DNA of 36,923 bases from Alphaproteobacteria bacterium (GTDB lineage: Bacteria; Pseudomonadota; Alphaproteobacteria; Rs-D84). The first letter of the stretch is position 1; every line of letters begins with the position of its first letter. The notes below the pieces were generated by a model. The model was not told the origin of the DNA. It ran no database searches and was given only the letters and a program-made list of their open reading frames with translations. This document shows, in pieces, positions 6,044 to 26,842 of this stretch. The DNA lies in NCBI GenBank assembly GCA_016927395.1, contig JAFGMU010000042.1:1-36923 (forward strand), read 5' to 3'. Position numbers and translations under genes: made by a program.

Positions 6044-6415
6044 TTAATATACACAAGAAGATAGTAAAGAAAAAGTATTCATTGATAAATCCCTGTATGA
6101 ACCAGATACAACGTAACAACTGGATTCTGATGTACTGCCCAATGAACTTGTTGCAAGAACGGTAATACCTAAAGTTGTTGTAAAATCCGTAACAGCCGGA
6201 CAATTTGTACACGATGTGGCCGTAGAAGCTGTTGATTTATAAGTCCCTGCTGGACATTGGGAACAATAACAAGTTGAAGTACCCTGATTAACAGCATAAT
6301 AACCCGCATTGCACGTACAGCTGTAATCTTGATTAACACAGGCAGCATTTGCAATACCTGAATATGATATAAAAATTGCTAATAATAAAAATTTGTATTT
6401 ATTATTTTTTATCAT
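6044..6415 (-). CDS. small secreted cysteine-rich protein (123 aa)
   Basis: The true start is ATG 6415, preceded by AGGGTGG. The open frame extends further upstream, but that would overlap the neighbouring gene and hide the signal peptide. The signal peptide (FLLLAIFISYSGIANA) is followed by a mature part rich in cysteine, glycine, serine and threonine. It has spaced pairs (CTCNAGYY, CYCSQCPAGTYKS, SCTNCP) and a late cysteine (ESSCYV). The CPAGTY...C..CP spacing resembles EGF/TNFR-like or ephrin-receptor-like repeats found in secreted or surface proteins. No anchor is visible. It follows a second small Cys-rich gene by 14 bp, so both are probably one transcript. Function unknown. Confidence 0.7.
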   Translation of the reverse strand: MIKNNKYKFLLLAIFISYSGIANAACVNQDYSCTCNAGYYAVNQGTSTCYCSQCPAGTYKSTASTATSCTNCPAVTDFTTTLGITVLATSSLGSTSESSCYVVSGSYRDLSMNTFSLLSSCVY

Positions 6416-6429
6416 AACCACCCTGATTT

Positions 6430-6717
6430 TTAGCATGCACCCGGACTTCCATCTATACAATACATAAGAGAGGTCGAACAAACCTCTACCCAATTTCGAG
6501 TTCCACCTGTTATTACAATCGATTTATTTGTACTAATATCTGGGCAAAAGTAACAAGACTCATCGCAAGAATAATTTTGGCAGTGTATGGTCCCTTCAGA
6601 CATAGCTAAATTACCAATATTACAAGAATCGCAAAACCACCCCGTAACACCCGCCGCCCAAGAAACAGTTGAATAAAAAAAGAATACAAAGAAAAATAAA
6701 TTTTTTTTCTTTATCAT
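6430..6717 (-). CDS. small secreted cysteine-rich protein (95 aa)
   Basis: First gene of a two-gene unit. I chose ATG 6717 (MIKKKNLFFF); the TTG codon just before it is not needed. A hydrophobic leader (FFFVFFFYSTVSWA) is followed by a short mature protein with many cysteines (FCDSCN, HCQNYSCDESCYFCPD, EVCSTSLMYCIDGSPGAC). It ends in a C-terminal cysteine. The even number of close pairs suggests disulfide bonds in the periplasm or outside the cell. It has its own near-consensus promoter at 6749-6777. The family is not recognised, and its relation to the following Cys-rich gene is by layout and composition, not by clear sequence identity. Confidence 0.68.
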   Translation of the reverse strand: MIKKKNLFFFVFFFYSTVSWAAGVTGWFCDSCNIGNLAMSEGTIHCQNYSCDESCYFCPDISTNKSIVITGGTRNWVEVCSTSLMYCIDGSPGAC

Positions 6718-6748
6718 CAAATAATTCCATTTATTTAAGATTTATTTC

Positions 6749-6777
6749 ATTCTAAAGAAAACGAATATTTTTTTCAA
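6749..6777 (-). promoter_or_regulatory. promoter of the Cys-rich gene pair
   Basis: On the minus strand TTGAAA (6772-6777), 17 bp, TAGAAT (6749-6754). Predicted start is near 6742, giving a leader of about 25 nt before ATG 6717. It lies just downstream of the tRNA-Val terminator. Confidence 0.55.
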
Positions 6778-6782
6778 GCGAT

Positions 6783-6807
6783 AAAAAAACCGCAGTTTCC
6801 TGCGGTT
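6783..6807 (-). terminator. terminator of tRNA-Val(TAC)
   Basis: On the minus strand CCGCAG-GAAA-CTGCGG forms a 6-bp stem, extended by A-T pairs, with a GAAA loop and a run of seven Ts. It begins a few bases after the tRNA 3' end. Confidence 0.85.
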
Positions 6808-6813
6808 ATATTC

Positions 6814-6890
6814 TGGTGGATGTTGAGGGACTCGAACCCCCGACCCTCTCGGTGTAAACGAGATGCTCTAGCCAACTGAGCTAAACATCC
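6814..6890 (-). tRNA. tRNA-Val, anticodon TAC
   Basis: A 77-nt cloverleaf on the minus strand. The 5' acceptor GGATGTT pairs with AACATCC before ACCA, and the CCA end is encoded. The D-arm TAGCTCAGTTGGCTAGAGC is standard. The anticodon stem TCTCG/CGAGA holds loop TTTACAC with anticodon TAC (valine), and the T-arm carries GGTTCGAGTCC. It is followed at once by a terminator and has its own promoter at 6905-6933. A second valine tRNA (GAC) lies at 31387. Confidence 0.97.
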
Positions 6891-6904
6891 AATAAAGCTC
6901 GCGA

Positions 6905-6933
6905 ATAATAAACTATAATTTTAATATTCGCAA
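6905..6933 (-). promoter_or_regulatory. promoter of tRNA-Val(TAC)
   Basis: Minus strand TTGCGA (6928-6933), 17 bp, TATTAT (6905-6910), then a GC-rich discriminator (CGCGAGC). GC-rich discriminators are typical of stringently controlled tRNA promoters. The two boxes sit in an inverted repeat (GCGAATA/TATTCGC, 6901-6932) that could also fold as a hairpin after ybaB. Confidence 0.55.
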
Positions 6934-17520: not shown

Positions 17521-17546
17521 AAAAAACCGGCAAATGCCGGTTTTTT
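17521..17546. terminator. bidirectional terminator between accC and sspB
   Basis: ACCGGC-AAAT-GCCGGT stem (17525-17540) flanked by As on the left and seven Ts on the right, so it works on both strands. The same stem and loop recur after infC. Confidence 0.88.
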
Positions 17547-18010
17547 TATTTTTTATCTGTCTTTTTCTTTCTGAAATCATCCATACTGACCACACGTTTA
17601 TCATCTAAATTAGCCTTGTCTTCCAATGGTAATTCCATATCATTACCTGCACTGGGCGCTGTTTTTAGTTGAAAAGATAACATGAAATCAACTGATGGGT
17701 CTTTGAATTCAATCAATGCTGAAAAAGGTACACGAATAAAGAATGGGCGACCGTCAAATGTTAACTGTACACCGAATTCTTTGTCTGAAACATTCAGGTT
17801 ATTGTAAGAATACTGTAAAACAATTGTCATAATATCAGGATATCTGATTCGTAAAAAATCTGGTAAAACAACACCTGGGTCGCGCGTCTTGAACGTTATA
17901 AAAAAATGCGCACCATCACCCAAGCCATTAAACTGTGCATGAATCAGCGCGTCCTTTACAACGGATTTCAGCGCATTATCCAACAGTTTTTGATAGTCTA
18001 TTTTTTTCAT
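17546..18010 (-). CDS. sspB: alpha-type SspB, ClpXP adaptor/stringent starvation protein B family
   Basis: The protein matches the alphaproteobacterial SspB family. In this clade SspB tethers ssrA-tagged and other substrates to ClpXP for degradation. The 154 residues start with a helix (YQKLLDNALKSVVKDAL) and contain the family core: HFFITFKTRDPGVVLPDFLRIRYPDIMTIVLQY, then FGVQLTFDGRPFFIRVPFSALIEFKDPSVDF. A charged tail (VVSMDDFRKKKTDKK) corresponds to the ClpX-docking end. It follows recF with a 3-bp gap. Its stop abuts a bidirectional terminator. Confidence 0.88.
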   Translation of the reverse strand: MKKIDYQKLLDNALKSVVKDALIHAQFNGLGDGAHFFITFKTRDPGVVLPDFLRIRYPDIMTIVLQYSYNNLNVSDKEFGVQLTFDGRPFFIRVPFSALIEFKDPSVDFMLSFQLKTAPSAGNDMELPLEDKANLDDKRVVSMDDFRKKKTDKK

Positions 18011-18013
18011 TTA

Positions 18014-19090
18014 TCACTCCACGGCCAGTATATTAAATATTTCGCCGTTCTTGCAAGCAACAAATACAGAATCATCACAACCAGAAAAAATTTCAGTGGT
18101 AAGACCGGTGGCCCAAACTTGTGCGCACACACTATTTAATTCTTGGAACAGGTGTTTTCTGGCATTTTCATCCAGATGTGCGACCGCTTCGTCCAATAAA
18201 ACTATGGATTTTTTATTGGTTTTTGCAATGACCAGTTTTGAATGCGCTAAAACCAAATCTATCAGTATTGATTTTTGTTGTCCGGTGCTGGTCAGATGAA
18301 CAGGTAAATTTAACAACTTGTTAAATACTCCGAAATCAGATTTATGTGCGCCATCTATTACCATTTTATCACCTTGCAAATCGCGCATATTACCCAAATA
18401 TTCCAAATATTTTTTTTCTGCATCCATCGCAGTACCATTTAATAAAAATGTTTCAATTTGACCTGATACTGAAATTGCACAATTTTCAAGAAAATAATTT
18501 AATTCAGCCGCATATCGTATACGTGCAGCGGCAATTGAAACTGAAATTGCTGCAATTTGTGACTCCAGCGCAAACAGCCATTTATCATCAGCGCCGCTTT
18601 TTAATGCAAACGCACGCTCAGACAGTAACTTTGCCAAACGCGCAGTTCGTCCAGAATGGGGTGAATCAAAACTGGAAACCAGTCTGTCAAAAAAAGCGCG
18701 TCTGTCGGATGCAGAATCCACAAATAATCTATCTTCTTTTGGTGTCAGCCATATTATTCCCAAATGATTGGCTAAATCTGACAAAGGTGCATTATCGCTG
18801 TCAATTTTTGCATGACGATTTGTATCGCCATTATTAAAAAATACGGCTAGTTCGGTATCATCTTGTAAATTTGCAAAAACACTGAATCCGCCAGAACCAT
18901 CAAAACGAGCAATTTCTGTCATAACCGCGCCACGCATACCACGATCACCACCCAACATTGATACAGCTTCCAATATTGCAGTTTTACCTGATCCATTTGG
19001 ACCAGTAATTATAATATTTTTACGACCCAGGGTTTCAATACGCCCCAGGCAGTGATTTCTGAAATCTGTGAGAGTTAATGTTTTTATCAT
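18014..19090 (-). CDS. recF: DNA replication and repair protein RecF
   Basis: SMC-like ATPase that loads RecA at gaps with RecO and RecR. ATG 19090 (MIKTLTLTDFRNH) gives 358 residues; the longer frame runs through the upstream tRNA and is rejected. Walker A is ITGPNGSGKTAILEAV (about residues 30-40). GIIWLTPKEDRLFVDSASDRRAFFDRLV is the conserved central block, and Walker B is KSIVLLDEAVAHLDENARKHLF near residue 300. No dnaA, dnaN or gyrB is nearby. The start lies 7 nt after the encoded CCA of tRNA-Cys and has no Shine-Dalgarno. Confidence 0.93.
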   Translation of the reverse strand: MIKTLTLTDFRNHCLGRIETLGRKNIIITGPNGSGKTAILEAVSMLGGDRGMRGAVMTEIARFDGSGGFSVFANLQDDTELAVFFNNGDTNRHAKIDSDNAPLSDLANHLGIIWLTPKEDRLFVDSASDRRAFFDRLVSSFDSPHSGRTARLAKLLSERAFALKSGADDKWLFALESQIAAISVSIAAARIRYAAELNYFLENCAISVSGQIETFLLNGTAMDAEKKYLEYLGNMRDLQGDKMVIDGAHKSDFGVFNKLLNLPVHLTSTGQQKSILIDLVLAHSKLVIAKTNKKSIVLLDEAVAHLDENARKHLFQELNSVCAQVWATGLTTEIFSGCDDSVFVACKNGEIFNILAVE

Positions 19091-19097
19091 TTTGAAA

Positions 19098-19171
19098 TGG
19101 AGGCCCGGGTCGGAATCGAACCGGCATACAAGGATTTGCAGTCCTCTGCATAACCACTCTGCCACCGAGCC
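19098..19171 (-). tRNA. tRNA-Cys, anticodon GCA
   Basis: A 74-nt cloverleaf on the minus strand. Acceptor GGCTCGG pairs with CCGGGCC (one G-T pair) before discriminator T and an encoded CCA. The anticodon arm GGACTGCAAATCC gives GCA, and the T-arm carries GGTTCGATTCC. recF begins 7 nt downstream on the same strand without a terminator between, so they share a transcript. Confidence 0.97.
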
Positions 19172-19185
19172 TTTGTTGCTAAACA

Positions 19186-19214
19186 ATACTAGGCAATCTG
19201 AGATTAAAATTCAA
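19186..19214 (-). promoter_or_regulatory. promoter of tRNA-Cys/recF/sspB
   Basis: Minus strand TTGAAT (19209-19214), 17 bp, TAGTAT (19186-19191). It is the only good promoter before tRNA-Cys. I see none between the tRNA and recF. Confidence 0.62.
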
Positions 19215-19254: not shown

Positions 19255-19263
19255 TGATATAAT
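19255..19263 (+). promoter_or_regulatory. extended -10 promoter of the exporter operon
   Basis: TG-A-TATAAT (TG at 19255-19256, -10 at 19258-19263), with no recognisable -35. Six bases separate it from ATG 19270, which predicts a leaderless start. Divergent from the tRNA-Cys promoter about 40 bp away. Confidence 0.45.
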
Positions 19264-19269
19264 AACCGG

Positions 19270-20598
19270 ATGAGAGAATATGATATGAAAAAAATACTAA
19301 TCGCACTTTGTTTTATACCTTCTGCTGTTATGGCTGCTGATGATTGTTCATCAATAAAAAACGTTCCATCTGGTGAAATGACATTGGAATCCGTTATAAA
19401 TATGGGATTATGCAGAAATCCGCAGACTTCTGCGGCATATTTATCATCGCAAGTTGCCAGATTAAATAAAAATGCAGGTTATTCAAAATATTTGCCCAGC
19501 ATCAGTGGGTCTGTTTCTTCGACAAAATCATACCAAAATAATGAATGGGGACAATGGTCAAATGGTGCTTCTCTTTCTGCTTCGTATTTGATTTTTGATT
19601 TTGGTAAAAGACTTTCTGATTTAAATGCTCTGTCCGCTACTTGGCAAGCCACCGGATTTGATTATGATGAAACGGTTCAAAACTATGTTTACAGTGTTAT
19701 TGGTGCATATTATGCATTGTTAAATGCTAATGCTGATGTTATTACAGCCCAGTCTTTGAAAACTGTTGCTCAAACAGCAAAAGATACAGCTGATAAAAAA
19801 TTCAAAGCTGGCGCCGTTGCCAAGGCCGATGTATTAAAGGCTGATACAACACTGGCAACACGCAACCTGGAAATGGAAAAAGCAAAAAATAATCGCGAAA
19901 TTGCCAAGGGAAACCTGTTGTCTAAATTGTCTTTCCCAGCAAATCAAAATATTAAAATCGCAGATATGCCATCCGATTTCGGAAAGGCAACAGAAAATAA
20001 AAACATAGACGAATTGATTGCATGGGCTGAAAAATCAAGACCAGATTTACTAAGTGCAACTGCAAACCGCGAAGCTGCATGGCATCGCAGAAATAGTGTA
20101 TTTTTAAGCAATTTGCCAAGTATTTCTGCTACTGGTTCTATGTCTTATAATCCGTCCCCTGACGTTTATTCTGGAAATAATCGTGTCAGCGGTAATATTG
20201 GTATCCGCGCGTCTATGCCTTTATTTGCCGGATTTGCAAATTTATATGGGGTTCGTAGTGCAACTGCCAGTTATGAACGTGCAAAAGAACAAGAACGTGC
20301 AACTTCTGATTCAGCAGTATTAGATATATTTACGGCATATCAAAATTATAAAACTGCCCAGACTTTACTGACACAGACTGAAACTTTGTTAAAATCTGCA
20401 ACTGAAAATGAGCGAGTAACTGGTGGTATGTACAAAGTTGGACGTGCAACAATGTTAGATTGGCAAACTGCCCAGGCGGATTTAGCAAATGCACAAAAAG
20501 AAAATAATGCCGCTAAATACGAATTATTTACAAAACGTGCTGCGGTCGCATTGGCAGTTGGAGATATCCAGGCAGAATTATCCGGGGGAAAGAAATGA
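19270..20598 (+). CDS. TolC-family outer-membrane efflux channel
   Basis: Outer-membrane channel of a tripartite exporter. The precursor has a signal peptide (KKILIALCFIPSAVMA) and two homologous OEP halves rich in long helices. Examples are NADVITAQSLKTVAQTAKDTADKKFKAGAVAKADVLKADTTLA (in part) and the second-half NERVTGGMYKVGRATMLDWQTAQADLANAQ; the (K/V)GR/AGA...D.L.A pattern is characteristic. Two starts are possible. ATG 19270 fits a leaderless message, while ATG 19285 (MKKILIAL) gives a cleaner signal peptide and 437 residues. The stop overlaps the adaptor gene by ATGA. Substrate unknown. Confidence 0.88.
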   Translation: MREYDMKKILIALCFIPSAVMAADDCSSIKNVPSGEMTLESVINMGLCRNPQTSAAYLSSQVARLNKNAGYSKYLPSISGSVSSTKSYQNNEWGQWSNGASLSASYLIFDFGKRLSDLNALSATWQATGFDYDETVQNYVYSVIGAYYALLNANADVITAQSLKTVAQTAKDTADKKFKAGAVAKADVLKADTTLATRNLEMEKAKNNREIAKGNLLSKLSFPANQNIKIADMPSDFGKATENKNIDELIAWAEKSRPDLLSATANREAAWHRRNSVFLSNLPSISATGSMSYNPSPDVYSGNNRVSGNIGIRASMPLFAGFANLYGVRSATASYERAKEQERATSDSAVLDIFTAYQNYKTAQTLLTQTETLLKSATENERVTGGMYKVGRATMLDWQTAQADLANAQKENNAAKYELFTKRAAVALAVGDIQAELSGGKK

Positions 20599-26286: not shown

Positions 26287-26842
26287 TTATATTTTCAATC
26301 GTAATTATAAAACCGTCACCAGTTTTTGATGGTATAAGATTATAGTCAAACTTGTATTTTTCTTTGGCTGTTTTAATCTCAGACTCAATTTCCCGGCCTT
26401 TTAATAGAAAAAGCCGGCTTTTGGTTTTATATACATAATCCAATATCTTTATCAATGGTGCAAATGCACGCGCGGTAAAAATTAACTCTGTATCGCCCTG
26501 CTTTATATTTTTTACAAAATCTTCTACACGACCATGAAAAATATTCAGGTTTGGTAAATCCAAGGATTGTTTAACTGTGTTTAAAAAACTGGCTTTTTTA
26601 CCAATTGATTCTATACATGTTACATCCCATCCCATTATTGCCAAAACAACTCCTGGAAAACCTGCCCCACTGCCTAAATCTGCCACATAGACATCTTTTG
26701 GCATAACATCAACCAACTGCATCGAGTCGGCAAAATGACGATTTTCTATATCTGTCAGAGTACTGGGTGCGACCAGGTTCATAACCTTGGACCATTCGCA
26801 CAGCAATTCGGCGTATTTTTCAAATTTTTCTTTATTATTCAT
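26267..26842 (-). CDS. rsmG: 16S rRNA guanine-527 N7 methyltransferase RsmG (GidB)
   Basis: Methylates G527 of 16S rRNA; loss often gives low-level streptomycin resistance. The 191-residue protein has the family opening (YAELLCEWSKVMNLVAPSTL), NRHFADSMQL, the SAM-binding ADLGSGAGFPGVVLAI (about residues 69-83) and FTARAFAPL. The C-terminus is slightly short. ATG 26842 has no Shine-Dalgarno and its predicted leader is under 10 nt. It precedes parA by 190 bp. The common mnmG-rsmG-parA-parB order is broken: mnmG is about 9.6 kb away at the window end. Confidence 0.93.
   Translation of the reverse strand: MNNKEKFEKYAELLCEWSKVMNLVAPSTLTDIENRHFADSMQLVDVMPKDVYVADLGSGAGFPGVVLAIMGWDVTCIESIGKKASFLNTVKQSLDLPNLNIFHGRVEDFVKNIKQGDTELIFTARAFAPLIKILDYVYKTKSRLFLLKGREIESEIKTAKEKYKFDYNLIPSKTGDGFIITIENIKLFHMK

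Follow-up and report, generated by a model that had tools for sequence, protein, structure and literature searches.

Close tRNA-Cys/recF junctions in small-genome Alphaproteobacteria and the probable role of tRNA 3′ processing in forming the recF message

The tRNA-Cys/recF junction

In the analysed stretch of DNA (the window, 36,923 nucleotides), a tRNA-Cys gene, a recF gene and an sspB-like gene follow one another on the minus strand (Table 1). The CCA end of the tRNA is encoded in the DNA (19100-19098), and the recF ATG (19090-19088) lies 7 nt beyond it. The recF reading frame is identified by TIGR00611 with 193.6 bits, against a cut-off of 172, and the Walker A motif and ABC signature are invariant across 12 aligned RecF proteins. 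The sspB-like gene, which has no NCBIfam match, begins 3 nt past the recF stop and is presumably carried on the same transcript. A single full-length close match to tRNA-Cys is present in the assembly, which is 92% complete; the other matches are 75% and 83% identical, the 83% one being partial.

Table 1. Features at the tRNA-Cys/recF junction of the window.
Feature	Position	Strand	Basis
Probable tRNA-Cys promoter: TTGAAT (19214-19209), 17 nt, TAGTAT (19191-19186)	19186..19214	-	read from sequence
tRNA-Cys(GCA), CCA encoded	19098..19171	-	ARAGORN
Spacer TTTCAAA, 7 nt, proposed 3′ cleavage site and recF message leader	19091..19097	-	sequence and 66 homologous spacers
recF, 358 aa plus stop	18014..19090	-	TIGR00611 over cut-off; SMC_N
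sspB-like gene	17546..18010	-	PF04386, 95.8 bits

The probable tRNA-Cys promoter is also kept in the sister genome G001. The consensus scan, with a threshold of 9, does not list it, since only 8 of its 12 positions match. Between tRNA-Cys and recF, the scan lists neither a terminator-like site nor a minus-strand promoter-like site, and its nearest minus-strand promoter match (19038-19011) falls inside recF. With both genes on one strand and no terminator or second promoter, the junction has the layout of a mixed tRNA-mRNA operon. The sequence upstream of recF pairs with the anti-Shine-Dalgarno (anti-SD) sequence at -2.5 kcal/mol, a value that indicates no SD; the other 25 genes of the window that were compared average -4.89. 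The anatomy given by the original prediction is borne out in each of these respects: the 7-nt spacing, the shared strand, the lack of an intervening terminator or promoter, and the lack of an SD. No promoter is seen inside the tRNA, which the prediction had named as a finding that would speak against it.

A 390-aa open reading frame that begins inside tRNA-Cys is mechanical, the tRNA being free of stop codons in every frame in 124 of the 127 family loci with an ARAGORN call. A read-through reading frame across the tRNA is ruled out, since the gap lengths of the 66 close junctions described below use all three frames (27, 26 and 13 loci).

Two further genes of the window show a leaderless promoter layout: a TolC-like open reading frame on the plus strand, where TATAAT ends 6 nt before the ATG at 19270 (19258-19270), and a gene at 26842 on the minus strand, presumably rsmG, where TACAAT ends 7 nt before the ATG. 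An ARAGORN tmRNA call (6339-6907, minus strand) overlaps tRNA-Val (6814-6890) and is probably false.

Two gap classes and their expression signals

The window's family consists of small-genome gut Alphaproteobacteria, and the organism itself belongs to an uncultured group of these. RecF was sought in 183 of its genomes and matched in 173; 169 recF loci, one per genome, were read, four of the 173 being left out. tRNA-Cys lies upstream of recF on the same strand in 129 of the 169 loci, 127 by ARAGORN and two (L077 and L190, with gaps of 10 and 9 nt) counted though the tRNA is cut by the contig end. It is divergent from recF in 5 loci and not found in 35, a count to be read with the length of the loci: most hold at most 600 nt upstream of recF, so that a more distant tRNA would be missed, and three of the 35 (L091, L104 and L171) had under 340 nt. 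In 17 stretches from other families or orders (L034-L050), no tRNA-Cys is found around recF.

The gaps between CCA and ATG in the 129 loci form two classes, a tight class of 7-14 nt (66 loci) and a long class of 51-359 nt (63 loci), with no locus at 15-50 nt, the related species in these counts not being independent. The tight loci are distributed as 1 in genus g1, that of the window's genome, 2 in g11 and 63 in g10. On the comparison of these sequences, the tight gap is judged to be more than chance.

The two classes carry different signals. A terminator-like hairpin starting at most 22 nt from the CCA is present in 56 of 63 long loci and in 0 of 64 tight loci. A -10 box that ends 5-8 nt upstream of the recF start codon is found in 40 of 63 long loci, in 29 of the 40 loci with no co-directional tRNA and in 1 of 64 tight loci; it is absent at this distance from 23 long loci and 11 of the others. 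Among the box-bearing loci, TTG stands at a -35 spacing of 16-18 nt, mostly 17, in 34 of 40 long loci and 24 of 29 others, and recF's own promoter in many relatives reads TTG, 17 nt, TATNAT. A box in this place would make transcription begin at the ATG or right beside it, so the species that bear it probably have a leaderless recF. Leaders longer than 14 nt may exist in some species, since the box is lacking from those 23 long loci and three of them also lack the hairpin (L002, which is G001, of the window's genus and with a gap of 52 nt; L010; and L014).

An SD of at least 4 bases upstream of recF is found in 0 of 66 tight, 1 of 63 long and 0 of 40 other loci. The mean anti-SD energies are -1.33, -2.09 and -1.45 for these three groups, and for comparison -2.72 for random recF 18-mers, -4.53 for secE and -4.89 for the 25 window genes; the tight recF value is weaker than that of the random 18-mers. 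The predicted openness of the start region hardly differs from that of internal recF windows (0.58 vs 0.53). For relatives, the original prediction had named conserved spacing as its check and variable spacing together with an SD as what would speak against it. That counter-finding is half borne out: the spacing varies, though in two separate classes, and a 4-base SD is absent from 168 of 169 loci.

A promoter within the tRNA gene or the spacer would be another way to drive recF at the tight loci, and a TATAAT-like string does lie directly at the ATG in 4 of 64 tight spacers and ends 4-6 nt before it in three more. Against this, in tests for promoters of the TATAAT/TTG type, a hexamer matching TATAAT at 5 of 6 positions and ending 7-29 nt before the ATG is present in 0 of 64 tight loci, a TA...T box at 5-8 nt in 1 of 64, and a box combined with TTG at the -35 spacing in 0 of 65. 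An internal promoter is accordingly rated very unlikely.

On a FastTree tree of the 169 RecF proteins, which does not give the direction of change, at least 9 switches between the tight and the long state are needed; the lower bound becomes 8, 6, 5 and 4 when branches with support under 80, 90, 95 and 99 are collapsed. The window's genome, with 7 nt, differs in state from its sister G001, with 52 nt. A clade made up of 39 tight species, with support 92, keeps a spacer of 7-13 nt throughout, with variable sequence. This persistence argues against relaxed selection, under which recF would be dispensable and its expression signals in the course of being lost. The RecF proteins argue in the same direction: Walker A and the ABC signature are present in 66 of 66 tight loci and the Walker B/D-loop pattern in 59 of 66, and RecF has at least 330 aa in all tight loci except L202, where it is cut off by the end of the stretch. 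RecF has no match in 10 of 183 family genomes and in 4 of 115 among the better genomes, which would favour such a loss, a reading that nevertheless has hardly any probability.

Within the single genus g11 (L015, L019, L017, L020 and L018), tRNA-Cys precedes recF tightly on the same strand with gaps of 12 and 8 nt, is divergent at distances of 64 and 274 nt, or is not found in its vicinity. The gaps of L016, L006 and L008 (131, 315 and 346 nt) hold an additional copy of the tRNA-Cys 3′ end, which in L016 sits 13 nt before the recF ATG; they look like the result of an insertion at the tRNA 3′ end that duplicated that end.

Spacers, processing enzymes and other tRNA junctions

The 66 tight spacers comprise 61 distinct sequences and have 13% GC, against 39% in the long gaps. 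T predominates at positions 3-5 after the CCA, and position -3, counted from the recF ATG, is an A at 55 of the 66 tight loci (mean of shuffled spacers 25.7, highest 37), at 18 of the 63 long ones and at 8 of the 40 others. In Salmonella, RNase E is described as cutting at the motif RN↓WUU (accessible text of PMC5222698), and cleavage sites in Rhodobacter are AU-enriched (accessible text of PMC6238624). One nucleotide after the CCA, RN↓WUU is found at 39 of the 66 tight loci and 17 of the 63 long ones; when the tight spacers are shuffled 2000 times, the mean is 13.2 and the highest value 24. The strict motif has no match at this position in 27 of the 66 tight spacers, and the motif lends weak support to RNase E, because the window's own spacer does not match it.

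RNase E/G is found in 36 of 40 genomes and RNase PH over its cut-off in 16 of 24, the window's genome (G000) being included in both cases. RNase Z is over its cut-off in 0 of 40 genomes, and its absence is not proven, because weak, partial, sub-threshold matches to it occur in 19 of the 40, G000 again included; the same search in 14 control genomes gives matches in all 14, over the cut-off in 9. In Propionibacterium acnes, the cut is placed a few nucleotides past an encoded CCA and trimming comes later (PMC3848588, as far as its text was accessible), and in E. coli RNase E cuts 2 nt after a tRNA (PMC4191395, likewise).

The tRNA-Trp gene before secE in the same family serves as a control, with 31 loci that are the 30 best-scoring secE matches plus L226 and not a random draw. 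Among these, the gaps measure 28-282 nt and fall at 28-50 nt in 11 of 31, so that distances never seen for recF are open to another gene. A strict 4-base SD precedes secE in 1 of the 31 loci, and its anti-SD energy is clearly stronger than that of recF.

The control bears on ordinary compaction, in which deletion in a small genome left recF behind the tRNA, the gap is functionless, and recF is co-transcribed with the tRNA, its translation using either the precursor or RNA that has been cut at random. The size of the genomes (779,205 bases for G000), the 3 nt between recF and sspB and the ordinary occurrence of mixed tRNA/protein operons, as in Corynebacterium glutamicum, where eight tRNAs share transcripts with protein genes (accessible text of PMC3890552), are all in its favour. 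Compaction alone, however, predicts neither an empty class at 15-50 nt, which tRNA-Trp/secE of the same family fills, nor a minimum of 7 nt and a maximum of 14 nt across 66 loci with 61 different spacers. It is considered unlikely.

A generic tRNA pattern run on five genomes lists 42 matches, some overlapping or not tRNAs by ARAGORN; 12 of the matches have no locus, and 29 locus ids were examined. Among the 29, only recF and L070 show an open reading frame longer than 100 aa that starts no more than 15 nt past the end of a tRNA, so tRNA punctuation seems not to be general here. At L070 (about 1524-1540, in the window's genome), tRNA-Pro is followed after 15 nt by a 167-aa open reading frame. 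Open reading frames of 72-92 aa lie near tRNA ends at L208, L213 and L223. At L215 (about 1524-1560), tRNA-Ala lies 36 nt upstream of an open reading frame with an SD-like stretch, which we take to encode ribosomal protein S21.

A proposed origin of the recF message

The best reading of the sequence comparison is a mechanism based on tRNA processing. Tight junctions with no terminator, no SD and, but for one locus, no -10 box, alternating with a leaderless promoter, fit a message whose 5′ end would come from tRNA 3′ maturation. recF is probably a mostly leaderless gene in which, in the tight class, processing of the tRNA 3′ end replaces the transcription start. In many relatives, recF would use a promoter of its own, which stands behind the tRNA-Cys terminator and ends 5-8 nt upstream of the start codon. 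Where the junction is tight, both terminator and promoter are absent, and the tRNA-Cys promoter would drive tRNA-Cys, recF and sspB together. The 5′ end of the tRNA is formed by RNase P. Within the AU-rich spacer of 7-14 nt, an endonucleolytic cut, most likely by RNase E, would separate the tRNA from the message, and exonucleases would then trim the tRNA 3′ end. The released recF-sspB message would have a leader of at most about 14 nt and no SD, and would be translated as a message of the leaderless type.

The proposal in the original prediction that tRNA 3′ maturation yields the recF message gains weight from the tight junction, present in 66 of 169 loci and alternating with recF's own leaderless promoter, and its steps of co-transcription and cleavage remain ones that we infer. 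Its further suggestion of a functional or regulatory tie between DNA repair and tRNA processing is not supported. A regulated form of punctuation, in which the rate of tRNA-Cys 3′ maturation sets the output of RecF (and SspB), repair capacity follows RNase E activity or stress, and the wiring was for that reason rebuilt several times by selection, is unlikely.

tRNA punctuation of mitochondrial transcripts was reportedly described by Ojala, Montoya and Attardi in 1981. In mitochondria, the 5′ UTR of an mRNA is a few nucleotides long or absent (accessible text of PMC11112386). The tight recF junctions resemble this arrangement in the tRNA just before the start codon, the small or absent leader, the lack of an SD and a 5′ end that would come from tRNA excision. 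They differ in several respects: recF keeps 7-14 nt between CCA and AUG, close but not abutting; the CCA is encoded; one gene rather than a whole genome is involved; RNase E, and not RNase Z, is the probable enzyme; and the alternative state is a bacterial leaderless promoter. The best reading is that the recF case works like the tRNA punctuation of animal mitochondria, though not as a genome-wide system here.

Among bacterial systems, mixed tRNA-mRNA operons are represented by tRNA-tufB of E. coli. The tight class shares with this type, as seen in tRNA-Trp/secE of the family, a single strand with no terminator between the genes; unlike the 28-282-nt secE leader with its SD-like signal, recF has 7-14 nt and no such signal. 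Caulobacter has 375 leaderless mRNAs, and leaderless messages are translated there about as well as others (accessible text of PMC4117421). Like such alphaproteobacterial messages, recF has no SD and would have its start codon at or near the 5′ end, and many long-class loci have the corresponding promoter layout; unlike them, the tight recF 5′ end would arise by RNA processing rather than by transcription start. MazF in E. coli makes leaderless mRNAs by RNA cleavage (accessible text of PMC3848588 and PMC4117421). There too a nuclease yields a short or absent leader, the agent being a stress toxin instead of the routine tRNA maturation proposed at recF.

In the literature searched, which was mostly non-subscription and seen in part, no bacterial leaderless message is described as arising from tRNA 3′ processing, and none of the searches turns up a paper on recF and tRNA-Cys as an operon. 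Leaderless messages are usually thought to be made by transcription starting at the AUG, and mitochondrial ancestors are usually assigned or joined to the Alphaproteobacteria. In conclusion, the tRNA-Cys/recF finding is real, and its extent goes beyond what a single locus could reveal. How far a start codon may lie from a processed 5′ end is sharply predicted by the two gap classes. The 169 loci suggest that tRNA processing can substitute for a leaderless promoter and that lineages of this family switched between the two several times, which would give bacteria their own equivalent of tRNA punctuation in mitochondria.
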